Shown here: piece after piece, positions 869-56,615 of the stretch
Layout: each line of letters opens with the position of its first letter
Numbering within the stretch: the stretch's first letter is position 1
Source: Gigantopelta aegis
Lineage: Eukaryota > Mollusca > Gastropoda > Neomphalida > Peltospiridae
Direction: 5' to 3'
Length of the DNA stretch: 64,000 bases
Assembly: GCF_016097555.1 (NCBI RefSeq)
Contig: NC_054708.1
Span: 5,154,462 to 5,218,461 of the forward strand
Made by a program: the position numbers and the translations under genes
Notes under the pieces: generated by a model
What the model was told of the DNA's origin: nothing
Database searches by the model: none
What the model saw: only the letters and a program-made list of their open reading frames with translations

Positions 869-16999
<16,131 letters not shown>

Positions 17000-29418: not shown

Positions 29419-29557
29419 TTATCGTTTCTCGTAGTAGTAGAAGTCGTTTGATGAGGGCTGCATGCCGAATAAGGACTCTTGCTGGTCAACCAGTTTCTTG
29501 AAGGTTGGTCTGTTTCTCGCTTTGTCTGCCCAGCAGTCCTGCATCATTTTGTAGTGG
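29419..29557 (-). CDS. RTK-like exon 22: alphaH-I and C-terminus
   Basis: 139 nt. [20 protein letters not shown], then the tail [20 protein letters not shown] ending YYEKR and a TAA stop. CW-x(6)-RP is the conserved end of the kinase fold. Confidence 0.95.
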
Positions 29558-30706
29558 CTGTAGGTTGATTAAAGATAAACAAGGTAAATAGTAATTTGGT
29601 TTTTAATATAATGTATGGCTGTTTTTATTTAATAATGTTTGAAATTTAGTTTTCTGAAGACCGATTTCTCGTTTGTAGTTCGAAAATGAGAGGCTTGAAT
29701 TTTGAATTACGTTCAGATAATCTTGGTTTACAAAGAACCGCAGACCAGATCAGGAACGATTTCACGTGCAAATAATACAGGTCAAACAGTCGGCAGAAAT
29801 CAAATTAACAATTTAACAATGTTTATAAAAAACCCTCAAACAAACATATTTTGTTTACCCGTATAACAGAAATAAATAAATAAATAATCGAAAATAAAGT
29901 TAACGTTTGCAGATCATCTATGTTCTTTGACGTTATGGAAATCTTGTGTTTACAGTATGTTCACTTTTTTCCACATCTCTGTTTCCAGTTTCTGCAATTA
30001 TGACATACACTGGCAAGATATGATTAATAGATATATTTCTATATTGCCAGCAACTGACCGAAAATATAGCTTTTAAAGATGGAATTAGTTTTATCCTAGT
30101 TACGATCAACAAAGGAATGTTGACCTTTGACCCTACAACCATACTATTTATTTTATCAATTATTCTATCTTTTCCCTCAATTTAGTTTTTGGCTTACATG
30201 ATAAAGGTAATGATATAGGATATCAGCTTTATCCTCTTCAGACCGAATAGGAAATGCCGCTCGCCAAGTCTCGTGGAATACCCTATTCTTACTTTCACAG
30301 GACACAACCAATATCCTTCATCATTAACTAGTAATGTTTTGACTTTATTTATACACTAGTGACTTTGTAATGAACACTACCTGACCACTGCAGAACAAAA
30401 TGGTATAAATTATTAATCTAACTACTTACATATCTTCACAGAACTCGGGCTGTCCAAGTCTGTAGCCACCCTTCAGTTTGCCGGCGATGTCACGACTTCG
30501 AATGCTCGGGTAGGGAGTTTGTCCTGTGGAAATGTCAAGTAGGTTTTAAATAAATAGAACAATTACTAGAAAGATATTCAGTGAAATATAGTAAGTCACT
30601 AAATAGTTTCATATATACATACATGTATGTTAGTTGAAAACCCATTCCATAAGAAGATTTCACATAATTTTATTTATGTATTTACTATTGTGTTTTTACA
30701 TGTATA

Positions 30707-30739
<33 letters not shown>

Positions 30740-33700
30740 ATTATTTATTTATTTGTATTTGTTTAATAATTTTATTTGTGATTTAGTTAGCTACTACAGT
30801 GGCTATATAAGAATTGGTTCTATTTTTTTTGGAATTTATCGATGTATAAAAGTCACAAATGGTATAAAATCGCGTAGCGTAGCGATCTTGGTCTTCCGTG
30901 ATGACGTATTTTTATGAGGTTTATGGAAGGATAACGCTTGGTTTTTTAGTGACGTCAGCCAATCAGAATACAGTAAATCGTATAAATTCGGAAAGTTTGT
31001 AATTATATAAAAATAGATATGCAATATATTACAAGATATAACAAATGACTGACCCAAAGTGAATATTTCCCACAGAACGACGCCATAAGACCACACATCA
31101 CTCTTTTCATCGGCGTCTTTCAAAGTCTTGAGACATTCCGGGGCAGTCCATTTGATAGGAATACGATCCTGAAACAAAGGAAGGAAAGCAATACATAATT
31201 GTTATTTCTTGCGAGTCCACATATCTCTATAGCTGACAACCAGCACTGATGACGTCAAGTATTTGAGAGTAAAAGAATAATTCACTAATTTGCATGTATT
31301 TCTTATGATGGAGGGGATGTAGGAATGATGCCTAGCTATATAATTGAAAATAAGTAAATAAAATTGCTTTACTTTTCAAAATTTTCCGATTTTTAACGGT
31401 AAAAGCTCTCTCTGTAAGTAAGATATGTTGTTCATGTATACACTGTGTCGAATAGATTGATATTATACCACATGATTATGTTCTCAAAACTTCATACCAG
31501 CTACCAGACTACACTTTTGGGCCCTCAGGTGGAAGAGGCCTATCCCAGATTCTAACATCTGAAAGATTATTTTAATGTTTATAAGGTCACACCGTATTAA
31601 CATCCTATTTATTGCACGATATTCGAACAGTACATTGTATGTAATATGTGTCATAATTCTTATTTCTAAAATCAAAAACATAGCGAACACATGCTAGGAT
31701 CTATGTACTTAAGGAATATAACAAAGTGACCAATTAGGACAGTTGGCTGGTTAACACGTAACACGATGGCAGTACAAGACACATGCTTGCCTGACAGAGG
31801 TAACATATTTAATGAACATTAACTGGTGCTAGCAAGTAGTGTATTAACACACAAACACATCTCACACAACAACCACCCCAACAGGCATCTCGTACAATAT
31901 TGAAAAACCGCTACCCCTGTATCTCTGCACAATGCAGAGTCGAATGGGAATTTGGCAAAATAGTGGTTGATTCCATGAATCTTTATCTAGTGCCTCGTTT
32001 ATAGGACAGGCACACCCGAGGAGATCCGTGACAGGACCGCCACAAGGAGGACTGCCACTCCCAGACTAGTTTATGCAACAAGAAAGAGCTCTTTAGAATA
32101 ATGAATGAATGAATGACTGAATGTTTAACGACACCCAAGCACGAAAAATACATCGGCTATTGTGTGTCAAACTACATTAGAATAAATACATTTATGGTGA
32201 CATGCAGCCATGAATCATTGTCCAAACAGTGATGATATCATGTGTTCGTTAAAGGTGAGCTTATCCTGCTCCACCAGTGGCACTCGTCATGGATGCACAC
32301 CTCCTTCAATTCATAGAGCATACAATTTACCCCTTTGGAGTTCTCGTCCTCTTCCTTGTTCTCTCCACGTTGAGGTCCAAACCCTGTGACCTTCGCTTGA
32401 AGAACGAAAGTCAGAAGAACATTTCTTGCTGCAAGCTTCTTGTGGACAATCTGTAAGTAGTAAGATGTACACATTTAATAAATTAGACAGAACTATGGAC
32501 AGTGTTCATGAAGATCACGAAATTAATATATGAGAATATTTTAATTAGACTAGAATTAAGCATCCAATATACTTGTAAAAACAATTTATTGTATGATAAT
32601 AGTACAAGAAGAAACTTATAGTGTTTTACATTTGAAACCTATATATCATTAATATGTTTCTAATCTTCACTGATATCTTACCCCTCGTGACGTCAGATAT
32701 ATCATGGCCTGGGAAATCTCCATGGCAATCCTCGGTATCTATACATTATTAATCTTCTATTAAACTGATGTCTTACTCCTCGTGACGTCAGATATGCCAT
32801 GGCCTGGGAAATCTCCATGGTAATCTTCTGTATCAATTTCATTACTAATTTTGCATTAAACTGATATCTTACCCCTCGTGACATCAGATATGTCATGGCC
32901 TGAGCGATCTCCATGGAAATCCTCTGTATCAATTTCATTATTAATCTTGTATTAAACTGATGTCTTACCCCTCGTGACGTCAGATATGCCATGGCCTGAG
33001 CGATCTCCATGGAAATCCTCTGCATCTTCTCGATGGTGTCATCTGTTGTCTTTCCTTGCTGTTTGGACAACCATTGGTCAAGCTGACCCATCTCGCAATA
33101 TTCCAAAACCATTATAGGACCCACTGTAGTATAGTGAAAGAGACGGTGAGAGGCAAAGATACAAGCAGAATTAGAATTAATTAACATATTGACAACTGGA
33201 GTGGAAATAAAAAAGCATATATCAGCAAAAATTCAAACAAATTACATACTCATCCTCTTGGTTATAATGACATGGCAGAATGACCAATTGGATATTAAAA
33301 ACAATCATTACTGTTCAACATCTAACTACATATATATTATATTATTAATTTCATATATATTGTCTAAAGAATAATAACTGTTTATTATTGTCATTATTTC
33401 TGGTTACAGTGACCACTGGCATAACACAAAAGGTACAGTCGACCTTACAATAAGTAGTAATACTGTCACATAATTCAATTAATGTTTTGTGTAAACAGGA
33501 AATGCATACATACACTCATCATTGTCCACAACAGCTCCGAAGAATCGTAAGATGTTTGGATGCTCCCCAACTTGGGTGGCTTGAAAGTTGATCTTTGCCA
33601 TAATGGTTAGAACATCATCTTCTGTGTGATCATCTGAAACACAACGGTGATTTTTAGTATTTTATCTTAACAGAGATTCATGGAATCAACCATTATTTTG

Positions 33701-35782
33701 CCACATGCTCATTCCACTCTGCATTATGCAGATATGGTCTTAATATTAATTAATAACCCGTAATATATAATATTTTACTACGTCCTTTCCTCTTGGAATT
33801 TTCTTGACATATTTAAAAGAAATCAAGTAGGAATTATTTTTAAACAGTCAACAAAAAAAAAGAAGAAAAAAAAAGAAAAAAAGAAGAAGAAAAAAGAGAA
33901 TGATCATATTTAAGAAGAGCGACTCTTGGCATAATTATTATCAAAATCGGAAAACGATCATTTCTTAAAAAATAAAATAAAATGTTCATAAAACCGGTGG
34001 TGGTTATGTGAATATGAATAAAACTGTATCTGTGAACTATTTGGATTTCAGGTTTTGTAGCTTAAACTAGAATGACCACGCCTCGATGGCTCGAAGTTCA
34101 TATGCTGGATGCTGAAACAATCAATGAAGCAATTGGTTGACAGGTTTTCTCCTACAGACGAGTCACTAGATAGAGCATCATGAAATCAAACACTATTTCG
34201 ACTCTGCATTGTGCAGATATATGGCCTTGATCACGGATAACGGTTTTGTCGTCCAGATTCAAAACGTAGGAAGGATGTTTTAGTCCAAAAATATATTTCT
34301 TTAACATTTTGTAACATATCTCATAAATATAACTTCATATTACATAATTATCACACTTTCCTTAGTAGCTGAAAACTGTGTTAAACAATTCGTCCAAATA
34401 TTCAGTTGAAAGGCTCACTTTGTGAACAAATTTAAAAGTCACCCATTAAACAATTAAAAAGTCAAAGGCAATTCGAGAAACCTTAACAAAACTATAATAA
34501 CATTTTATTTGACCATTAACCCAGTTTAACTATGCCTAAACTAAATAACAATTATGCAAATGTATCATATAGTATTCCCAACGTAAACTAGAATTCTGTC
34601 TGTAAACAATGGGGTCAAAGATAAAAAGTTTGCTTTGTTTAACGACACCACTAGAGCACATTGATCATCGGCTATTGGATGTCAAACATTTGGTAATTTT
34701 GACGTATTATCCTTGAGAGGAAACCCGCTACATTTTACCATTAGTAGCAAGGGATTTTCTATATGCACCATCCCACAGACAGGATAGCACATACCACGGC
34801 CTTTGATATGCCAGTCGTGGAGCACTGGCTGGAACGAGAAATAACCATATGGGCCCACCGACGGGAATTGATCCTAGACCGACCGCGCATCAAGCAAGTG
34901 CTTTACCACTGAGACGAAGTGAAAATGTAGAAAGCAAACATTTCACGCACAAACCTTTGGCCATCTTAGCAATGACTTCATCTTTGTCTGCAGGAGCGCC
35001 CTTCCACGTGGCTGTGTAGACGTGAGCAAAACGTCCTGTGTGGATGAGTTTCACCAGCGTCAGGTGGTCCTGGTGGATATACCAAGGTTGTCGCGCTTCA
35101 AAGTTCATGCTTCCATACAGGTAGATTTCATCATCCGCTGAATAGGCGTTATTCTGTGTAGCAGACAATCGTACATCAATTATAGTCAAAGTGCTATACA
35201 ACTGCGTTTGATAAATAACATGGAAAACGACAACATTAAACCGGTGTAAACGGAATGCAAGTCCGTAGGAACAGTGGTCTCCTAGGAATGCAGGTCCTAG
35301 GTCTAATATACCTAGGAATGCAAGTCCTAGGACTTATGTTCCTTAGGAATACTGGTCTGACTGCCAGGATATCAAGTCCGGGCCGGACTTGCATTTCTGG
35401 ACAATCAAAATTTAAGTCCGGTCGTACACATACAAATTAAATTATAAATGTAAACAAAACGAAAAACAGTTTCCTTTTTGGTTTATTTAATTAACTTAGG
35501 ATACTAGCGCCTCTCTTTATTTAAATATTTTCTATTTATTCCAATATTTTCCATTTATATAATTTGCAAGAGTTTGTACATATTTTGTTGACCTTATTAC
35601 ATGAGCAGAACTAAGGTCTTTATTCACTGCGTATTGTTCCAACTAATAAATGTTTAAACATTTAAAAGTAACTCATAAACATTTACCATAATTCGAAGCA
35701 TATTAGTACTCGCAAATAGGTATAACTTGCCCATATGATATACCAATACAATTATCTGTTAGACATTATATATTGGTATTTG

Positions 35783-35817
<35 letters not shown>

Positions 35818-38800
35818 TATTAATAATAATTTAACTATAAAAATGTGATATTTGCGTTATATACATTATCTTGTTATTATATAATTTTAAGTTTGTGCCT
35901 TTCTGTCAATAATATTGCAGGCGCGTGTACATAGGGTATGGGGTGGGGTGGCAAATTTCTTTACCTCTCCCCTGCATAGCTTACTGAACATGTGCCTGCT
36001 TTGTCAAGTTTGCTCATTTAAAAAAATAATTTGGTCTAACATATGACATATCAGACTCTAGCCTCTATGATATCTTAGTCCTAACAAACCATACCATCGA
36101 TAAACAAATATGTTAAATGGTTTTCATTAATGTTTATCAATTAATAGAAATATCAATGACTAAGAGTGGGTTTTAGCAGCTCAATGGGCTACTACACCGA
36201 CTAAAACAAAACAGTAATCCCTGAACAATTATCATACTGTCAATAATAATATATGCACACACAATTTACAAAGATCCTTTTAAACAGACTAACTACTCAT
36301 GACACTTTTACACCTGACCGTTTTTGTCGCAATAGGCATTCAGACTCCCTTTTGGGGAGAAGGGTGGGGGAGGCATGCTGATCATTATTGCCCGAATGAA
36401 ACGAAAATGTCCGAATCTGGAACACAACGTATATTTATATTCGCATTACTACCAAGATGCTAAATAGGATTCCAAACAAATCAGTCTGCATTTTTAAATG
36501 GATTACAACTAATATTGTGAGTAAAATTATGGAAATGCATGGTAAAGATTTTAGACCAACTCATTTTTCTCCAACGTGTCCATTGACCCCATACATATGT
36601 AATAAGCAAACTATCGGAAATAAATTCCAGAGGACTAGGAATACTAGAATTGAAACTCCTGTGGACTAGGAGTACCAGGAATAAAAGTCCCACGGACTTA
36701 CATTCCTCGAAATGCACGTCCCACAGACTTAAATTCATAGGAATACAGGTCCCACAGACTAGGATTCCGAGGAATGGAAGTCCGATCGGACAAAGATTAA
36801 AAAATCACAATTAATCAGATTGTGACTTACCGTCAAAATATAAACTAACAAAACATATTATTAAAAATTATGTTCGTGCATATAGATATTGTTCACCAAA
36901 TGTTAGTTTTTTGGAGTTACCAGTTTTCATATATATATTTTAAAAACAATTTTGGGCTACATATTGAGGGGGAGGGGGGGTATATTTTTTCGTGTTGAAC
37001 ACATGGACATATAGCCTACTTTATATCTGTAGTTGCTTTATATACTTTAAAAAAAGCAAGATATTCGTCCTACTTCAGTATTGTAACAAAAATGTAAGAG
37101 GATTACAAAAATACACTTGTCTGATCCACAAGTCTATGACGAAAAAAAAAAAATTAAGTTGATACTCAAACTTAAAAATATTTTTTTACATGGAGATTTG
37201 AACCCAGAATAATCTTAAGAGACTCGTACAGTTATCCATCACACTACGATGGAAGGCTGCCAAAACCTCACTTTTTTTCTAGTGTCTTTCTGGCAGCTTG
37301 TGCAAATTGCAGAGTATAATAAACGGACATCTAATTTGCCGGACTAGTATTTCTGTCACTGCTGTAGAAGGAATTTAAGTCTGGTAGGAATACAAGTCCT
37401 AGGATAAAAACAACTTAAAAATAAACCAGGAATGAAAGTCCGGGTAGGACTATGGTTCCTAAGCTATGGAGGTCCGATAGGACTACTGTTCCTAGGAACC
37501 GAGGTCCTACGGACCTCGATTCCTACGGACCTGCGTTCCTTTTACACCGGTTTTTATACACGTTTATAAGTATTGTTATATTAAGGAACACCACTTACAA
37601 ACACAGCAACAGAAGCTGGAGATGGTCCGGCGTTCTTCACCTTTGTGTCCACTACAGGGTTGCTGATGGTTACGTGGTCTGCCCCGCCATATTCCTCATG
37701 TAGTCGCCATGGCAGCTTCCTAGTAAACCACGGAAGCCGTCCAGTGCGCCACAGAACAAAGCCAACCAACACGATTACAAGTGCTATTAGGAGTAGCATT
37801 CCTGAAGAAACCCCCCCCCCCCCCCCACATTAAAGCAATAAGAGCTATGTGAATATTGTTGTCATCAATGTTGATTTCATTGGGGAAAATGGCGAAATTG
37901 AGATGTCTGTAGTTTTGACGTACTAATGCAGCTGTTGACAATATTAAAATTTGTAACAAAGATTTTAAAAAAACGAAGCTATATTGTATGTGCATGCGTG
38001 CGTGCGAGTGTTTCTCTTTGTTGGCGATCTGTAAATATAGCACCTCAAGTACAACATTTATTCTGTCATGATAATACTCTGTACTAAAACACCCTTGAAA
38101 ATACACGAAAACAAAACATAACCAAAAAACAAAACAACAACATAATACCCAGAAGAATTTAACAAGCACAATAAAATAAACCACACACCACTACTGTATA
38201 CTTGAATACAATATTTCTGAGCGTTCTGGATTGTTATTGACAGTGGTCATAAATAAAATAAACATCAAAACAAAAATTATATATAATAAAAGTACAAATG
38301 CGCAAAATAATCATACTGAAATATCTGTATTAAATATCGAGCATTACATAGATACTATTTGACTTGAAACGGTTTTATTTTTAAGTAAATTGTTTGGGAA
38401 GATATCCTTCTTTTCAGTTTTTTACTGACGGATGTGTGTAAAGTGCTCGCTATGATTATATGCGTGATTGGTTTACCTAACATGTGTTATGGTATATTAC
38501 ATACATGAGTGGGGCATGTCATCACAGCTTTATTTATTCCAATGAACTCTGCTATGTAAGTTTTGATTTAGTAAACTAGCCTGGTAGTGGCATTCCTCTA
38601 GTAAATTTGTCTAGTAAATGATCTCCTCGGGAGTAGCTGTCCATCTATAGACGAGGCACTAGATAAAGATCCATGGAATCATTTACTATTTTGCCAAATC
38701 TCCATTCGACGTACCCAACACTGAAAACATTTCGTCGTAAATTCCTTGCGTTCCCTACCTCATAAATATCATACTATAAGCATAGAAAGAGGACGGATAC

Positions 38801-41800
38801 AGCATGCAAATGTAGACAGCTTGCGGAAAGTTAAATGCTATTTCCCAGATTTATTGAAAATAAGTTTCCATTTGTGGGCGGATTCGTGTACCTAGTTTAA
38901 CAATGCGAAATGTCTGCACGTGTTCATCTTACCAATAGTGATACCAGCAACTGATCCGCCACTTAGTCCGCTAGATTCTGGTGGGCCAGGCTCTAGAAAT
39001 TGAAAAAATAACCCAAACAAATAATAATTATGTTTACCCTCAATGTAACATGGATCAAGGCAAACATATAGTATGCGATTACCTATAGTTATGACACTGA
39101 AATAACACTGTCACCTAAACAATAGTGGTATCAAACGCACGATGGAAGGAAGTATTTTATTTAACGACGCACTCAACACATTTTATTTATGGTTATATGG
39201 CGTCTGACATATGGTTAAGGACCACACAGATACTGAGAGAGGAAACCCGCTGTCGCCACTTCATGGGCTACTCTTTTCGATTAGCAGCAAGGGATCTTTT
39301 ATATGCACTATTCCACAGACAGGATAGTACATACCACGGCCTTGTGGAGCACTGGCTAGAACGAGAAATAGCCCAATGGGTCCACCAACGGGGATCGATC
39401 CTAGACTGACCGCGCATCAAGCGAACGCTTTACCACTGGGCTAAGTCCAGCCCCCAAACGCACGATGGAGCTTATACGGTACAGCTGTTATACTGAACCC
39501 AACATCACTGGACGTAGAGGCTACAATTCTGATACAATTGTGGCATTATTATCATAATATTATTATTGTCATTATTTTTAGTTTTATTATTGTTGATGTT
39601 AATAATATTATAATTATTAATAGCAGCAGTGATAATAATATGACATTGTTATTTTACTTTATTTTATGTTTATTTGTGACGTATTAAGAAATGTTTTTAT
39701 TTTAGATATATGTAATAGAGTGATGTATATGTCTGGGTCTACTAACCCTATATAGCCTAATAACGATATATGGTATAGAGTGATGTATATGTCTGGGTCT
39801 ACTAACCCTATATAGCCTAATAACGATATATGTAATAGAGTGATGTATATGTCTGGGTCTACTAACCCTATATAGCCTAATAACGATATATGTAATAGAG
39901 TGATGTATATGTCTGGGTCTACTAACCCTATATAGCCTAATAACGATATATGTTATAGAGTGATGTATATGTCTGGGTCTACTAACCCTATATAGCCTAA
40001 TAACGATATATGTAATAGAGTGATGTATATGTCTGGGTCTACTAACCCTATATAGCCTAATAACGATATATGTTATAGAGTGATGTATATGTCTGGGTCT
40101 ACTAACCCTATATAGCCTAATAACGATATATGTAATAGAGTGATGTATATGTCTGGGTCTACTAACCCTATATAGCCTAATAACGATATATGTAATAGAG
40201 TGATGTATATGTCTGGGTCTACTAACCCTATATAGCCTAATAACGATATATGCTATGTCAGCATGCCACCATTTGACTCTTTAATAAACAAGTATCATGC
40301 AACTATGCTTCCTGTGACCCGATAGTTCGAAATATTATTATGTCACTGCCTGGTAACACCTCCGTGATAAGCATGATAACCTTGGCATTGCTAGGTGTAA
40401 TCAGGTTATCAGGTTAGAAAGTGAGTTCTGCGCAGTTTTGAAACATTGAGTATGTATAATGTGTATGTAATACATGACACCATGTGGTGTATTGTTGCTA
40501 CTTCAAATATAATATATTACCGGTTCAAACGAAATACGAGCCTAGTCCTTGAGCCGAGGCTTGTTACAAAAAAAGGTTTACTTACGAGTTACGAGGATAA
40601 AGTTAACTGGTTCACTCATGATATCACCATATTGAGATATCAGTTGCATGGTGTAGTTGGTACCAGGTTCGAGTCCAGTCATATCTTCATACACAGCGTC
40701 TTTGTGTAACTTCTTCTTGATCAACTTGCTATCTTTGTTCTTGTAGTTGATCCACATTTCTGTCCGTTCGTAACATGCGGGGGAGTGGTCCCACGTGATC
40801 CTAGCTCCAGTCTGGGTGACTCGCTCGTTACGAACATTCATGGGACCCAGGACTGTAATCATCAGTCAGATTATTAACAGTGCAGTTGTGTAAACTACTA
40901 CAAACCGAAATATTAAATAACCATGTCTAGTCATATCAGAAATATTACTGACGATGTATATATTTTGAAATATTGCTGGTTTTAACGTTCTGTATTCAGC
41001 AACACACATATATGTAGAGATTTATCTCGTCTAACCTAATCTAGTTTTTCTAGTTTTTCTAGTTCAATTCTAATCCTATCTGATTAGTCCATCGATCGCT
41101 AGATCCATTTATTTATATATTGTGTGTGTGTCTTCTTTAGTTTTTCTATTATTTGTTTAGTTTTAAATACTTACAGGCGTCTGTACCATTCAGTGTCAAC
41201 AAATCAGAAACCTGTAAAAGTACAAATATATATTATGATTTTGGATGAAAAGAATGCTACTCCTTTTAACCATTAACAACAAATTAAATAATCTAACATT
41301 AAGTACACTTGTTAAATAGTTTGGCATAGCGTTCTCGAAAGTAGAATGACACTTTACCGTGTATATGTTTTGGGATTAGTTTGGAGTTACGGCAAGCAAT
41401 TGTTAATTATTAACAATCATAATGACTACCCATTCACCAAAACGGACAACAAAACATAGGATATCCGCACAAACACAGAAACTGATATGTATTATTTTTA
41501 ATGCAGATACTATCTATAAACTATGATTTTATGTTTTCATTTTAAAAGCAAATTAAAATTATAATATACTTACTCTGACAGTTCGAACGATAGACAGTAA
41601 GGCATAATTAAAAATCTCAAATCTCAATTCAACTGTCTCGGATTCGAGTCCATCTCTTGGAACCATCAGCCAGCAGTTATTGATATCCAGAACTTGGGTT
41701 TTCTTCTGACACAAGTCAGGTTGGTTATTTGTGCAAAAACAGTTGTCTTGTAACACATCCTTGCATTCTGATTTCTACAAAACACAACGTCAATCGATGT

Positions 41801-44800
41801 TTATCGTGTAGCTAGCAACACAATGCTGACAGTGGCGGATCTAGAAAATCCATTTTGTGGGGGGAGGGGGGGGCAATGACTTGAGGCGGAATGCCAAAGG
41901 AACTTTGGGGGAGATGTAACTGTAAAAAAAAAGAAAATTAATTATCCATAAATTATAACTGTCGTTTAGGTGGGCGAGTCCCTGCCCCCCCCCCCCCCCT
42001 AGATCCGCCGGATCTGGGAAGGTGAGTGTGGGGGTGGCGCCCCCGCTACGTTTTGCTCTTTTTATTCATTTTGGATTTTCTGGATCCGCCACTGCAATGT
42101 AACTTCATATCCATACGATTCGTGTCGTTCATTCATATTGATGATCCACTCACCCAACCCCAATTTTATCTATCACTATGGGTTTTTGTTTTAAAACAAA
42201 CGAATACTTACAGGTATAGTCGGAATACTGTATGAATAAGCCATCATATCAGAAGCTGATTTCAATCGTACAACCGTCATGTTCATTCGATAAATACCGC
42301 TTTCCATGTCAAATACAGTCAGTAAAGCTCTGTTTTAAGAAAACAAGTTACATATATCCACAAAATGTTAGATATGCACACACAGCCAATTGAACCTCTG
42401 ACTAAAGACCTGAATTAGTTATGACAGTTATGAATTTGGCAACATTTATATTTATAGTATGCGGATTCAGGACCGGCATTCTCCGCTACGAGTAGTTCGT
42501 AGATCATATGATATTTCTCGGATGTAAATAGTTTCAGTATGTTTACAAATGCGGGTAAATATTTATAACTTTTAAAAGTGTTCAGATACACACACGAAGA
42601 TCGTAATGGTTTTAAAGCCACAAGTAGACACACTTAATGTATTCATTAAAATCAATATTAAATATACTATATTTTTCGTAGAGAGAGAATAATAATTTTT
42701 AGAAGACATACCTTTCATATTGCTGATTATATTGTAATATATCCAGTGTAGCGTTACTGGTTAATACATGTTTGTGGCCCATAGTGGTTATCCTGATATT
42801 ATACAGAAAATATTATATGGTTACGAATATAGATTTCACTTACATACCTGTGAACATGGACATGTAAAATTAAAAGTAAACTATTGACTTACCGAGATCC
42901 AAATGAGTAATTTCCGAGAATATTTCTTTTAAAGTTAACCTGTTCCAATGCACTTGGTACTGTATCATCAAAATGAACTTTGATCTTATCAGTCTTCCTT
43001 CGACCTGTGATGTCCATAGCTCGAACCCAGATAGTGACAGTGTCTCCTTTGCTTGGATTATTGGGAGTTACAGATGTACTCAGAGTTGAATAAGATAAAT
43101 TTCTCCATCCAGTCGTCGGCTCTAGTTGTCCTCTTCCTCCATTGCTGTCCTTCGCATGGACAACCTCGAACTTAACGATGCCTCGGCTGTTGTCGATGGC
43201 TGTCACTTTCCGTGTACCGTAATTGTCGTCGTCTTCAATTCTCTTCAAGCCATCTTCCAATTGCTGTGGGTAGACTTTCACGAGGTTAAGAAGCTTGTTG
43301 TCTTCATGAATCCTGTTAATGAAATGATCCTTCCAGCTAACGATCAGAGGATTGGATATGTTAGATGTCCAGACATCGTTGCCGAATCCTCTAGCTGAAG
43401 ATACTTCCAGCGCCTCAGAATTAAGTATGATTTCTGACGATGGGTCATACAGACATAAGCGTCTTATAAAGCGAGAGTTGTTTGCCAAATCTGAAGTTTC
43501 CAGAATAAAAGAATACATCCCAACTTCTGTCGGTTGGTAAGACGGCGTCACGCTACTAAGATTTGCGTGCATCACTTCCTCAATCTTCAAGGGTTTTAGT
43601 GGATATTGCTCGTGCAGTCTACCGCTAATGTCTGGCACCAATTTGAAAACTTCCCATGCGTAGCGGAACATACCAGACAGAGAGTCAGTCCAGCCATTCC
43701 AGTTCAAGACAATTGGAGTCTGCAAAAAATTGGAATATTCTAGTTGTGTTTCTGTTATAATCGAGGTTAAGATGCTTGGTTAATATAATCGAAGCCCCTC
43801 GGCATCCAGAACCACACAAATGGTTTACCAAAGGTCATTGTATGAATTGACCTGAAGAGAAAGTGCATATAAAAGATTCTCGCAAAGTCCCATCCCCATG
43901 AATGCCTGGGAAAGGGCATTGCCATTTATAATTTCGTTACAGTTTGTTTTAATTGTAATTTTTAATGGATGGTTTTCATATGTGGTATGGAGTCCCAGCC
44001 ACATGAATATAATCCTATGGAGATATATCAAATAGGTTTTAAAGGTAAAGTTTGTTTTGTTTAACGTCACCACTAGAGCACATTGATTAATTAACCATCA
44101 GATATTGGATGTCAAACATTTGGTAATTCTGACTCGTAGTCATCAAAGGAAACACGCCACATGTTTCCACTAGCAGCAGGGGATCTTTTATATGCACTTT
44201 CCCACAGACAGGAAAGCACATACCACGGCATTGGACCAGTTGTGGTGTACTGATTGGAAAGAAAAAACCCACAATCAGCTGAATGGATCCACTGAGGTGG
44301 TTTGATCCTGCGACGCAATCACCTGAGGCGAGCACTCAACCGACTGAACTAAATCCCCCCCCCCCCCAACGCTATTATAATGAACCCTTATGCTCTTTTC
44401 TGTACTGCAAATACAACTTACCTGTGTTACATGGATGTCATTATCAACGCTAAATATGTTGTCTGCACAGGACGGGTTTTTGAGTTTGCAATGATTCGGT
44501 TTAGCCGTATCAAACCGGAACTCGACAGCCTTAGTCGTCGTTTGTCCCCGAAAATCGTGTGTCTGGTACGGAACATCGGGACGTTCTACATCCACCACCT
44601 CACGATAGCCACCACTCTTTGTCATGAAGGTCATGGTCAGTCTGAAAACAGCAGTGCTCTGTTAATAACATCATTCAAGTAATTATTAATCATACACTAT
44701 TGGATATCAAACATTTGGTAAATCTGACTCGTAATCATTAGAGGAAACCCGCTATATTTTTTCTAATGCAGCAAGGGATTTTTATATGCACTTTCCCACA

Positions 44801-46632
44801 GACAGGAAAACATATACCACGGTCTTGTCCAGTTGTGGTGCACTGGTTGGAATGAGAAAGAGCCCAATCAGCTGAATGGATCCACCAAGGTGGTTTGATC
44901 CTGCGACGCAAGCACTTCGAGCGAGCACTCAACCGACTGAGCTAAATCCCGCGCCCTCAACTAAATAAGAAGAAATAAGTTGTTTTGAAGAGTAATAGAA
45001 AGTTATTATTAGTTTATCCAAGAAAACCATTCTACACAATAAAACAAACAAATTCAAATATTAGGTTGTGTCTGTAATTCATTTAATTAATTATTTTCAA
45101 CCGATGTTCGTGCTTATATCCAATTAAGGTTCAATTACACTGTCCTGGACACACACCTCAGCTATCTAGGCGGTCTGTCCAGGACAGTGGGTTAGTTGTT
45201 AGTGTGAGAGAAGAGGGTGTAGTGGACTTAAACCTACCCATTGAGTCGTTAAAACTCGCTCTGGGTGGGAGCTGGTACCGGGTTTAATTCACAATAATTG
45301 TTCAATGATATCATAAAAATATCTAATGTTAATTGGGTTTGGAAGAATTAACATTATGGATGTCTAAATTATGTGATAAAACTGCAATTAATAGATTAAA
45401 CAGTCTTTAATTACCATTGAAAATACCAGTCATTATGCAGCAATTCTACATCTATCAAATAGTGATTGTATCGTACTGCCGTATATCAGACGTTTGAAGT
45501 GTCTATCTGTTATACCAGTTCTAGATAGGTCATACTATTTACATAATAAACAAACAATATGAAAATATATGTAACTTGAACGTATTTGTGTCCGTTAGAA
45601 ACTATGCATCTCAATTATATGACAAAACAGCATATTTTTGGCCATTTTAACATTTTGTAACTAACTATATCCACATCCCACTGTACATACTACAATCGTG
45701 TTAGGTCAAATGTGATGGCAGTGAAGATACATTAAATAAAAATAATAATAATGTAACCAGTTAAGATTATCTTTCAAATGAAAAATATAAATAATATACA
45801 AGTACCTGTCGCCGTTTTCCAGCTGCCTGTCAAAGTTTGGAAGACTGATACTGCAGTTTACGACATCCGGGGCAGGTGATCTCGGACCAAAATTCAAAGA
45901 TGTAAAGGTCCGATTACACTTGAAGGTTTCATTTTTGCTGACAAATGTCTTGTTAGGGTCTGAAACGATGCCACATAATCGACAATTTCATGTCATTCAT
46001 TCAAATATACAGTTGTTTTCATTGAGCTTGTAAAATACCAATATATGAGATATTCACCCTCCTAGGCTCTGTCTGTAAAACATACTTATATAGTCGAAAT
46101 AAGAGAGACAAAAAGACGAAATTTGTGTTTATTAAAGGGACATACCCTAGTTTTTAAACACTAACACATATTTTTTTTACTATTATAACCGTTTTTGGTA
46201 ACTGAAATCATACTTCACTTCGATGTTTTGGTTTAGATTATCAATCCGTACATTCGAAGTGTGTTTGGTCATCCTGGTGTTTTTAATATCGCAAAATGCA
46301 TTTCTCATATTTTTAAAAACGCACATGCGTCTGAGAAGTCGAGTTTTTAGAGGGTATTTCACCATTTCAAAGTCATAGACCCATGTTTCACCCAACTGTA
46401 ACTTTATCCAAATGTGTTACAGGTTTGTAGATTAGCCAAACTTAGTGTTAATTTTCACGGTTGAAACTAGGGTCTGTCCCTTTAATTTGACAGCACGTCT
46501 GTGATAGGAACCGATGGCAGGTAACTCCACATGAATAATGTTAAAACTCGTACAAAAACATATTTTTTAGTTTTAAACACATACAACACTTTTTACAAAC
46601 GGGTGGATAAAAATTATCCCCCCCCCCCCCCC

Positions 46633-46685
<53 letters not shown>

Positions 46686-49101
46686 CCACCCCCTGCCCCC
46701 AACAACAAACACCCTGGTGTCGTTGCATAAAGCAAAATTTAATTTTAATTAATTAATCATCAGCGTCAAACATTAATTTTGGTAATTCTGACAGATAGTC
46801 TTCAAAGGAATCCTGTTACATTTTTTCGATTAGCAAGAGATCTTTTTTATGCACTTTCTCACCAGTAGGATAGTACATACTTTATATAATGGTTGAGGGG
46901 CAATCCCCCCCCCCCCCCCCCCCGTGATATATAGTGTGATAGCGCATGGAATAATTAAGGGTATGAAAGCAACATTTAAAAATAGCAGTCGTATATTGTT
47001 TTCCAACTGTGTGAGCGCAGTCAAGATATTATATATTTATACTGCAAAATATACTAAAGGAATGCAATACTGTCAAATATGTGTGTTTGTTTGTATGTGT
47101 GTACGCACGCACGCACGCACGCACGCACACAGAGTAAACCATAATATATGCTCAACTGTCTAAAATCTGTCACGCCATATAATGCTGTTTTACGACAGGC
47201 AGCTAACGTCTTCCAGTCGAAAGCTTGTGTCTGAATCCAACATAAGGCATGTACTTTTGTTTGCACATAAATTGCAATAACTTCGACCCTTATATCCAAA
47301 GCACGAAATTACTTATAGTTACGACTAGCATGCTGTATTTAAATTGCAAGCACATATATAATTAAAAGTAGTATTTTTTTCACTGTATACAAAAAAAGGT
47401 CGCAATAAAGATTGTATTGGATTATAATGTATTGTATTGTTTTGTATTGTACTCTACTGTGTCATATCAGCTACAACCACAATTGCCATTCTGGGGAGAT
47501 TTAAGCCCACTACTCTGAGTACTCTCTTGCTATCGACTGACACTTAAACATTAAATTCTGTTCTGGACGGACAGCCCAGATGTGTGGCTGAAGTTAAAAC
47601 CAGGGCAGTGTGGATGTTAAGGATTAAAATTAAATGCCAAGGTAAACGAAAGTAATGTTCACCAAGAGAAATATTACCTTGAAAGGACTGTTTGATCAGT
47701 AAAATATTGACGTCTGCTTCTGTTATGCCAAACGCGACTTCTTTTATCCAGTCGGGTTTAGGCGGGGGATCTTCTCCCATATATTGACTGACAGCTGTCA
47801 CGTTGAGCCAGTTGAACCGATAGCGATTGGTCCATATGAAATCAGTGTCTTTTTGATTGGTCGAGTCTACCAAGAGGGCGTATTGTTCCCACGGATTAGC
47901 TATCCGTCTCATCCAGTATGACATTCTTGCCTGAATAGCGTTGACATCAGGTGCTAATTTGGACCCCACTATCATAGTAATAATAAACATAATAACAACA
48001 ATAATAACAACAATAACAACAATAATAATAATATATATCTATTAGTAGTACTAGTGTTATTACTAGTAGCAGTGGTGGTGTAGTGGTGGTTATGGTAGCA
48101 GCAGCAGCAATAGTAATAGTGGTAGTGGTTGTGGTGATACTACTACTACTACTATTACGTCTTCTACTACTACAACAACAACTACTACTACTACTACCAC
48201 AACTACTACCAATATCAGTAATAAAAAGGACTAGTTAATTTACACAACTTTGTTAAGGGTTCAGTGTTTTGGGTGACCTCATTCGGAACATTAACTAATG
48301 TTTGCATATACGATAGTTTGACACCCAATAGCCGATGCATTTGTCGCGATGGGATGTTAAACATTCATTCATTCATTCATTCATTCCATTCTGAACATAT
48401 ACTTGAATAGTTCTGCAGTTTTCAAACATTTGGAATGAGATCTTTAGAATGAATTGAAGATAAGTTTACGTCTTAACATAAAAAAAAAAAACACAACAAA
48501 ATTATATAACATGCCACTAAAATACAAAAGACAATTCCGAAGTGAATAATATTATCAAAAATAAAAATAATAAAACTATTGAAAACTATTTCCAAATAAA
48601 CACTTGTATCTAGATATAAATATATATTGGAGGGGTTTAGATTATTCATAGCTCACTACGCTTGATTCAACTCACTATCATGACATTTAGGACCTCCAAA
48701 TCCACCCTCACAGGTACACGTGGTGGATGTTCCGTCCGGGTTTCGTTGACACATACCAGGGTAACATGCTGTCAGGTGTGAACATGTCCCTGAAATTTGA
48801 CATCATTATGACGTGAAGCAACAATGCTGGGGATAGATGTTGAGGTGCGCTCGTCCCTCCAAATCCAAAATGTTCGAACGAAAAATGCAATATCAGGCTA
48901 TTCACAAAATGTCCAGTGAAAATATAGACAAAATGGTTCATATTCGAATCGCCCCTGACTATCGTTGACTGTTGTTAAGTTTGCAAACACATACGTTTGG
49001 CATAATTTGTATCATCGACTATTATGTTTATCTCGAGCCACGGATATCTCGAGCTTGGTGGTTCGGTCCCTTCAACATCGAGATACCGAAGTTTGACTGT
49101 A

Positions 49102-49132
<31 letters not shown>

Positions 49133-52100
49133 AGATATAGATATATAGATATACATAACTCGCATAAATACGCAAACAAATTTATAAATCATAATGCCTA
49201 TAATGCACGTTTGGAAATACTTGTTTTCGCTTCAGATAAGTAAATAAAAAATTAGCCATGAAAAGAAAATTAAAAGAAAGAAGAAAACGTTTTATTTAAC
49301 GGCGCACTCAACACATTAAATATGAAACGTTATTGAAGATACAAAACCTGCCTTCAGCAATATATACCATCTTCCACGAGTTAAAAACACAAAACAAATC
49401 AAAACATTTCAAGTAAAGACATTTCTATTTAACGAACACATGCAGTGATGTTATTGTCATGTCAAGTCATGCGGTCAGATACTAGCATTTACTGTTGAAA
49501 ATATTTATGTTTTGTCTAACTTCATTAGTAGATTCTGGTGTAGATACTCACGTCCATCACATCTGTATCCGTCATAGCCAGACGGACAATCACAATGACC
49601 AGGTCTGTCACAGACTCCTCCGTTTTTGCACGATGGATTACAGATAGCTGAAACAGTGATGGCAATATTTTATTTCAAAGAATTCTACTCTAAACTAAAA
49701 CTAAACTGTAGTATTTTGCTAAAAAAAAGTAAGAGCCAGGCCGTAAGCAACGTAAAATAGCACGAGGGTGGTGTTGGGGTGGGTGGGGTTGGGGTGGGTG
49801 AGTAAGAATTGTGGCACAATAATATTGGACTTTCTCGTGATACATGTATCTTTTATTTTTCTAAGTTTGCTGACTAACTACATGGACAGCTAGTTGAGTT
49901 AAAAAAAGACAATTTTTGGTGACATAATAAATGACGAGAACTGACAATAAACACATCTAACTAGAACATAATAACAATATATGTAATACATTAATATGCG
50001 TACAATAAACACATCTAACTAGAACATAATAACAATATATGTAATACATTAATATGCGTACAATAAACACATTGAAGAACATCCGTTGACGTTTTAGAGT
50101 AAGCGCCAAAAACATGGTTCGCACAGAGTGGTCTTACCAAAAGTGGATTATTGGTGTTGTACACATTTAAGTGTTTGCGTGTAAATAATTCAATTTGGCA
50201 TCAAACATGAAAATGGGGTGTTTTGGAATGAACAAAATGTTCTATATTTTATATGTGTAGTAAAACAACATTCGCTTAATTGTTGTATGCTCGGATGAAT
50301 TCGCTGGGAATACTTCAAGGAGTTCTCACACTAAATATTTTATAATATTTCTGTTAAATATTTACAATTCTCCACCTGGACGGAGGAGTCGGCGAACGTC
50401 GACACCTGCGCCCATGACAGGGGTGCGTTACAACAGTTTGTTCCGAATATGCACGTTAAAACCTATGACCTGAACTAACCTGCTTGAAATATTATTCTGT
50501 GTATTCAGATGTTCCATTGTTCTCGGAAACGTTAGAAACGTATTTTGAGCTTGTACTGGCGCGCCCGCACTATGGCAGTGCTCCTACAGATGTGGTGGGA
50601 ACCCTATATCACGGTCAAGACCAGGGTTCCGTTCCACGAACGAATTGTAGCTAAGGTTGATTGTAGTGATTTAAGGTGAGTTTTACAACTGGCACCGTAA
50701 ACTTTACAGCTGTTCCACAAAGCAACCTTACGGTAGTCGTAAGTGCCCCTTTAATTATTAATAGAATTTTTGCAAAGAAGTGCGAATTAGTTAAAAAAAA
50801 AAAATGTTTACCGACTTTTCGGAACATGTTAGATGTATTCATTGGTATGGGACAACCATGAAGTAACTTTGTCAATTTATTCGGTAAGCGATAATTGCCA
50901 AATGCATAAGACATGAGAGTTATCTCCCTTATTTTTGTGTGAAGGTCGTTAGACCTAGACTGTTTTTCATCGATCACAGAGTTTCATAAAAGGTATTTGG
51001 TATATATTAGATCCATTTTTACTGTTAGTATCCTTCTTAGAAAATTATCAAATCATCATCTAACTGCCATTTGACAGCTACGTTAGTGGCTTACAACTGC
51101 CTCGTACCTATTGTAAATTTTCACAGTAATTTACGACGATAGTAAGTTACGCCGTGTCGTGGAACGGGCTGACGATCGTAGAAAAAACTTAAGGTCTCGA
51201 TGGTAGGTATTTACGACAATAGTAGGGCTAAGATCGCTTCGTGGAACAGGGCCCAGTTCTCCTTAAATAAACCTGACATTCATGCATGTCCCCGAGACTC
51301 CGTCATAACTTCTTTGGGACTGTCTACCGGCCTCGGTGGAGTACTGGTTAAGCCACCGGATTATGGCTGGTAGACACTGGTTTCGCATCCCGGTACAGCC
51401 TCCCACCCAGAGCGAGTTTAACGATTCAGTGGGTAGGTGCAAGGCCACTACACTAACTGCTAACAACTAACCCATTATGCTGTACAGACAGTGCATATAG
51501 CTGAGATGTGTGCCGATGAAAGCGTGCTTGAACCTTAATTGGATATAAGCACGAAAATAAGCAGAAATGAATTGAAATGTGGACTGTCTTTTTCACAGAT
51601 TTGATGCTAATGGTAGATCCGTTATTGTCATGAATCTTACGATTTTTATACGCTTTAAATTAGCTATTGTCTGGGGGCATTGCTAGGAGTACATGTATAT
51701 TAACATATTATCGTCGTCGATCTTATCAGCAAAGACCCCTTCAATTTAAAATATGCCCCAGTCTTTCAAAACTTTGTTTTTGTCATTTGTGGTCTCCAAC
51801 TCACCCAAAAACGTTTCCTATACTAGACAGAGTAGCCAGCGAAAGTTGACACATGCGCCCACGACAGGCATGTGCTACAACAGCTTGTTCACAATGTGCA
51901 CGTTGAAACCTATAACCTGACCTGTCTGTTTTGAAGTCTTAATTAGTTATGAGACATAGAGTAATAAGTATAAGCAAGGTCTTACCTACAATACAGTTCG
52001 TTTGATCTGATGAAGTCCCTTTCCAACCGGTACAGCAATAAGGGTCGTATCTATAACGCTCCACCCAATAGGTGCGATAAGAGCAACAGCTGAAAACAAG

Positions 52101-55920: not shown

Positions 55921-56376
55921 CATTTCCTAGTGATATGATAACACTTGCTAGTGACATGATAACACTTCCTAGTGACATGATAACACGTCCTAGTGACATG
56001 ATAACACTTCCTAGTGACATGATAACACTTCCTCGTGACATGATAACACTTCCTAGTGACATGTTAACACTTCCTAGTGACATGATAACACTTGATAACA
56101 CTTCCTAGTGATATGATAACACTTCCTAGTGACATGATAACACTTGCTAGTGACATGATAACACTTCCTAGTGATATGATAATACTTGCTAGTGACATGA
56201 TAACACTTCCTAGTGACATGATAACACTTGCTAGTGACATGATAACACTTGCTAGTGACATGATAACATTTCCTAGTGACATGATAACATTTCCTAGTGA
56301 CATGATAACACTTGCTAGTGACATGATAACACTTGCTAGTGACATGATAACACTTGCTAGTGACATGATAACACTT
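55921..56376. repeat. 21-bp tandem array, about 21 copies
   Basis: The unit is CTAGTGACATGATAACACTT plus C or G. Variants differ mainly at that one base (CTTCC or CTTGC). One 10-bp partial unit occurs near 56091. Frames through it (Met-Ser-Leu, Met-Ile-Thr-Leu repeats) are artefacts. Confidence 0.97.
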
Positions 56377-56615
56377 CGAATTATCAGGTAAGGGTTGTCA
56401 GGTCAGTAGGAAACATGGTTACATGATAAAGCTCATGACGGTTGACAATTACTTCGGTCGGGATATTAATTTGATAATAATTGGCAACTTGTTTATTATT
56501 CACAATACAGAAAAAAAGTGTAGTTTTTTGTGTGATTTGTTGGCACAATCGAGCCCTCGGTTATACAATCCGATTATTATGCACCCAATATTTTTCATGA
56601 AACACCTAAGCCTAA

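Follow-up and report, generated by a model that had tools for sequence, protein, structure and literature searches.

Which splice donor is used when the end of an exon and the start of the following intron stand in four tandem copies, and do the additional copies matter to the protein? This question is raised by a gene of the hydrothermal-vent snail Gigantopelta aegis, located in a 64,000-nt stretch of contig NC_054708.1 that was analysed as a whole (the window). The locus is probably an old, neutral minisatellite that spans a splice donor, with donor 1 used and donors 2 to 4 acting as decoys at most.

Host gene and repeat array

The gene was identified as LOC121382895. Its protein, P0121 (1091 residues), was found, at 100% identity and coverage, by a long-query search in which the kinase region was scored. 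The kinase-like domain, together with one fn3 domain in an upstream exon (Pfam, E 6.7e-06), corresponds to the fold of a receptor tyrosine kinase. A TM-like hydrophobic stretch was noted by eye at ∼37740-37800. The features of the kinase region and of the array were located as follows.

29419..35153, minus strand: kinase-like domain, seven exons with canonical splice sites (Pfam PF07714, E 8.7e-69; tblastn of P0121)
32969..33123, minus strand: kinase exon 3 (counted from the 35153 exon), spliced as in the public model, with the alphaE end as its last 54 nt
32927..33022, minus strand: unit 1, 54 nt of exon end as in the public model, donor 1 and 42 nt of intron
32831..32926, minus strand: unit 2, a copy with donor 2 and exon end 32873, in frame, 32 additional residues if used
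32736..32830, minus strand: unit 3, 95 nt, with donor 3 and exon end 32777, in frame, 64 additional residues if used
32640..32735, minus strand: unit 4, with donor 4 and exon end 32682, where the 95-nt step has put the sequence out of frame
32331..32450, minus strand: next exon, with the loop HKKLAARN and GFG, degenerate forms of HRD and DFG

The array was assigned by Tandem Repeats Finder to 32669-33026 (period 96, 3.7 copies, 88% matches, score 541), and a second, separate repeat search returned four copies with spacings of 95, 96 and 96. On the minus strand the array runs from ∼33026 to 32669 as four head-to-tail units with steps of 96, 96 and 95 nt. When split at the donor, every unit contained 54 nt (18 codons of helix alphaE) from the exon end, followed by an intron-derived part of 42, 42 and 41 nt in units 1, 2 and 3. 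Unit 4 simply continues into the intron and its low end was set at 42 nt by analogy. The sequence-only reading of this DNA had placed four head-to-tail units of ∼96 bp at the alphaE/loop junction, each with the alphaE coding end, a GTAAGA donor and ∼45 nt of intron. Both repeat searches bore out the units, the position was correct and the intron length was close to the measured values.

Of the 155-nt exon, only approximately the final 54 nt fall within the repeat unit; the stretch 33027-33123, which the earlier interval had included, is unduplicated exon. Tandem (mutually exclusive) exon duplication was ruled out, as the whole exon with its own acceptor was not copied. Head-to-tail units that each carry a donor place the array with the donor-bearing minisatellites or VNTRs of the ABCA7 and CBS type. 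Across the window, 71 Tandem Repeats Finder rows were merged into 51 arrays, and among these only the donor-bearing array overlaps any of the 21 listed exons of the gene. Other minisatellites were located at 39705-40252 (60 nt x 9.1, 98%), 52183-52502 (38 nt x 8.4, 96%) and 55924-56377 (42 nt x 11.1, 88%). An imperfect palindrome around CCATGG lies in each unit of the donor-bearing array, and a further palindrome, TGACGTCA, which we take to be CRE-like, occurs 3 times in the four units (both within 32640-33022, minus strand).

P0121 reads LTSRG-IVHKK with no insert, and the public model joins donor 1 to the next exon; in this gene model the first donor is the canonical one, as in the VNTRs. 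The P0121 entry carries no isoform label, P0122 being labelled isoform X2, and homology may be part of the basis of the public model. The three G. aegis paralogs (proteins P0122, P0123 and P0124; loci LOC121383106, LOC121382898 and LOC121382899) align over 100, 79 and 76% of the query with 82, 85 and 85% identity, and their alphaE/loop junctions likewise contain no insert. P0121 may be truncated at its N-terminus: its start lies inside the exon next after a series of likely N-terminal exons that were located by tblastn of P0124 at 52867-52926, 51993-52091, 49550-49651 and 48683-48787 (minus strand). The same search gave a weak signal-peptide-like match near 55068 (minus strand, E 2.7e-4), whose alignment contains a stop.

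Small introns of 45 nt, running from GTAAGA to ATACAG within the array, would if spliced leave a tandem repeat of 17 codons. ATACAG is present at the start of units 2 and 3, as this would require. The stretch is, however, purine- and AT-rich with the pyrimidine tract absent by eye, 45 nt is very short for an animal intron and P0121 contains no such repeat, so that splicing of this kind is scarcely credible.

Donor choice and reading frames

A GTAAGA donor was present in 4 of 4 units, with exon ends at 32969, 32873, 32777 and 32682 (minus strand), the positions given by the sequence-only reading. Donors 1, 2 and 4 have the same sequence from -9 to +6. The donor of unit 3 has A at -1, which costs it one match to the U1 consensus: of 11 positions, donors 1-4 match at 6, 6, 5 and 6.

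The acceptor of exon 32331..32450 would be common to all four donors. In conceptual joining, donor 1 to 32450 gave the plain kinase, donor 2 an additional 32 residues and donor 3 an additional 64 residues, so the claim that the first three donors share one frame held. A frame shift had been expected at donor 4 after the 95-nt step; it was found, with a stronger outcome than foreseen, since read-through towards donor 4 meets a stop inside unit 4, upstream of the donor.

The open frame was considered as a sign of function and rejected, being unremarkable by chance. Across the gene region, 45.5% of 42-nt windows have a given frame free of stops, and when the intron part of unit 1 was shuffled with GTAAGA kept, 20.4% of 5000 sequences were open. 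A repeat step that is a multiple of three has a chance of one in three. A random single substitution in the 192-nt read-through created a stop in 34 of 576 cases.

Because donors 1, 2 and 4 do not differ between -9 and +6, site sequence is not what decides donor choice. This identity counts against the preferred explanation of a neutral minisatellite in that it gives no reason for donor 1 to win. The intactness of all four GTAAGA donors also counts against neutrality, because useless copies left to decay would not require it.

Use of donors 1, 2, 3 and 4 would give exons of 155, 251, 347 and 442 nt, respectively. Exon definition would favour donor 1 through the shorter exon, proximity to the acceptor would instead point to donor 4, and among identical competing donors the intron-proximal one is often favoured. 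The intron-proximal donor is preferred in DOK7, where the report, as available in part, names both a stronger site and SRSF1 as causes (PMC5585400); the available text of a paper on competing donors (PMC8724738) does not settle the winner of two equal donors. Since the exon-definition and acceptor-proximity rules conflict, and since DOK7 prefers its intron-proximal donor, a leak to the later donors at a modest level is quite possible.

Such a leak could also make the array a regulated or polymorphic brake, in which donor 4 would lead to a stop and decay of the message and the number of units would tune expression. The stop does precede donor 4, and donor 4 equals donor 1 in U1 match and is the nearest to the acceptor. 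The canonical junction does, however, appear in a public model, and a brake is unlikely.

The proposal that the locus is a natural test of donor choice was supported. The identical donors 1, 2 and 4, ∼96 nt apart, would compete for one acceptor with distinct outcomes (normal, 32 additional residues and stop), and the combination of one donor sequence with distinct outcomes makes the locus a ready test of position, rather than site sequence, in donor choice.

RNA structure was rejected as a mechanism, as the fold of a 684-nt stretch had a z of -0.53 and 5 of 20 shuffles were at least as good. The predicted fold does pair units 1 and 2 via the imperfect palindrome around CCATGG.

Pseudokinase family and history of the copies

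The receptor is a pseudokinase by sequence. The HRD and DFG aspartates of an active receptor tyrosine kinase are replaced in the window gene by Lys (HKK) and Gly (GFG), respectively. The 'catalytic loop' of the sequence-only reading stands as a loop position and falls as regards catalysis; because the receptor is by sequence a pseudokinase, the name is positional only.

The family was surveyed in 240 listed proteins, comprising the best 120 of 470 and the best 120 of 461 matches. Among these 240, H-x-D-LA-x-RN was found by script in 133, another residue stood at the Asp place in 93 and the pattern was absent from 14. The residue at the Asp place in the 93 listed proteins was Lys or Arg in 92 and Asn in 1 (P0042, a coral protein with DFG kept, which is probably unrelated to the Lys/Arg family). 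At the DFG place, assessed by script and by eye, Gly came first in 91 of the listed 93 and Asp in P0042, with one unreadable; plain GFG was present in 74 of the 91 (script). The named Lys/Arg members that were looked at, covering the sources of some, came from snails and bivalves.

The alphaE end was followed directly by the loop in 92 of the 93 listed proteins, P0042 included. Four of the 14 pattern-less proteins (P0135, P0139, P0144 and P0211) carry Lys or Arg followed by LGARN, with no junction insert. Among the matches listed with Lys or Arg at the Asp place, 95 of 96 were contiguous from alphaE to the loop; the lone exception, P0199 of Batillaria, is shorter rather than longer, with part of alphaE before the loop missing, and this gap may reflect misannotation of that junction. 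On the evidence of these proteins, an insert, if made, would be peculiar to the window gene. A literature search on molluscan receptor pseudokinases found no description of the family, and the available text of PMC4883820 does not describe it.

Any two of the four units show 2-8 differences over the 54 exon-derived sites, and the units also differ by indels. Tandem repeats are a usual place for assembly errors, and the real genome might on that account hold a single unit; a stuttering assembly, however, would give near-identical copies. The assembly was made with long reads: the DNA of one individual gave PacBio fragments of 8-50 kb, and subreads >4 kb were corrected for assembly (PMC7895826, as available in part). 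The same paper describes RNA reads from the organs of four dissected individuals (BioProject PRJNA680542). As the fragments are far longer than the array and the copies are not near-identical, an assembly artefact is unlikely and was given very little weight.

The variable exon-derived sites (n = 10) fall at codon positions 1, 2 and 3 in 3, 4 and 3 cases. Changes relative to unit 1 were 2N:0S, 3N:3S and 5N:2S, where 123 of 162 possible changes are nonsynonymous. Within units 1-3, 8 of 54 sites vary in the exon part, as do 5 of the first 30 in the intron part. The copies carry no mark of protein-level selection; these small numbers fit neutrality and are compatible with weak selection. The exon-derived part of unit 4 aligns gap-free to the other units and its intron part has diverged by indels, a gap pattern that leans slightly towards constraint.

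Unit 3 looks mosaic. Its exon copy is like unit 4 at sites 21, 22 and 24, and its first 30 intron sites have 1 difference from unit 1 and 14 from unit 4 (ungapped), a pattern such as unequal exchange between units would leave. The history of the array is not a simple tree, because sites 34 and intron 7 group units 2 and 4. At a codon for Ser in unit 1, unit 4 has one for Ala, and Ala is also found in the three paralogs, which suggests that the array is probably older than the change from Ala to Ser in the working exon.

We propose that a 96-bp segment across the kinase exon end and the intron start was duplicated in tandem, and that the array was then rearranged to four units, probably via unequal exchange. 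Splicing would take the first, exon-proximal donor, and the remaining three units would sit in the intron as a neutral minisatellite with decoy donors. If donor 2 or 3 were used leakily, rare in-frame insertions of 32 or 64 residues would result, and use of donor 4 would give a truncated message. The array is probably neutral for receptor biology.

The sequence-only reading had raised the generation of isoforms. Donors 2 and 3 would then be used at a biologically relevant level, giving receptors with a 32- or 64-residue insert. The frames are open through both donors, the donors are intact and an insert near the degenerate active site of a pseudokinase may cost little; with a further alphaE copy closing each insert, the fold downstream could remain in register. 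The ABCA7 array shows that a second donor can be used (PMC5954066). The claim was nevertheless not sustained, as the public model uses donor 1 without an insert or an isoform label, the checked relatives have no insert and the substitutions show no amino-acid constraint; isoforms of this kind are quite unlikely. A 136-residue read-through query gave no match at E 1e-3 among 36 candidates of only ∼75-238 residues, a weak test, and a phage record DNA search with the locus gave no match, as expected.

A working ladder, in which in some tissues donors 2 and 3 would lengthen alphaE and donor 4 would feed decay, is very unlikely. If true, one locus would set both the insert length of a pseudokinase and the amount of receptor, in a receptor free of catalysis.

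Known systems and other features of the window

No standard feature class had been known to the sequence-only reading; donor-including VNTRs are, however, described in human ABCA7 and CBS. Each unit of the VNTR in intron 18 of human ABCA7 starts with the exon 18 donor (De Roeck 2018, PMC5954066). According to the available text of that report, the first donor is canonical and cDNA showed one unit retained; the 25-bp units, ∼12 to 427 in the study, are out of frame, and polymorphism and RNA were shown (PMC5954066). Both systems are tandem arrays that adjoin an exon and have units carrying a splice donor. The snail array differs in its 96-bp units, n = 4, which are in frame with exon sequence in each, and it is known from sequence alone.

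The human CBS 31-bp VNTR, c.1444_1467+7(16_21), is polymorphic with 16-21 copies (PMC2630376, in its available part) and is placed at exon 13-intron 13 (PMC1395315, likewise). Its name was read as 24 exon bases plus 7 intron bases, by which the unit, like that of the snail, runs from the end of the exon through the donor into the intron. Unlike the snail array, the CBS VNTR has a shorter unit, 16-21 copies and known polymorphism. RNA work on the CBS VNTR was reportedly carried out by Lievers in 2001.

In CBS 844ins68 the intron 7/exon 8 junction is duplicated, one copy is strongly preferred and the normal message is kept (PMC2630376). It resembles the snail array in the preference for one junction copy and differs in being a single duplication on the 3' splice-site side (per the title of the cited paper) rather than an array of donors. 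Intron gain by tandem genomic duplication, in which a duplicated AGGT gives a new intron inside an exon (PMC3443670, PMC2891723, both as available in part), likewise makes extra splice signals from a short tandem duplication, whereas the snail array lengthens an existing intron. Intron gain of this type was rejected, with no AGGT in 33022-32640 and no new intron in the P0121 exon.

The class of donor-bearing minisatellites is already known, and the novelty here lies in the host animal, in a longer unit that keeps the frame and in the setting of a pseudokinase. Such minisatellites, known from human genes, also occur in molluscs.

Elsewhere in the window, open frames resembling two homeobox gene exons were noted by eye at 869-1291 and 2332-2616 (minus strand), and broken open frames resembling a non-LTR retrotransposon reverse transcriptase at 12465-13537 (plus strand). 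Short stretches at 34640-34910, 39150-39455, 44080-44350 and 44700-44950 (minus strand) are alike and, by eye, have the look of a tRNA-derived SINE.
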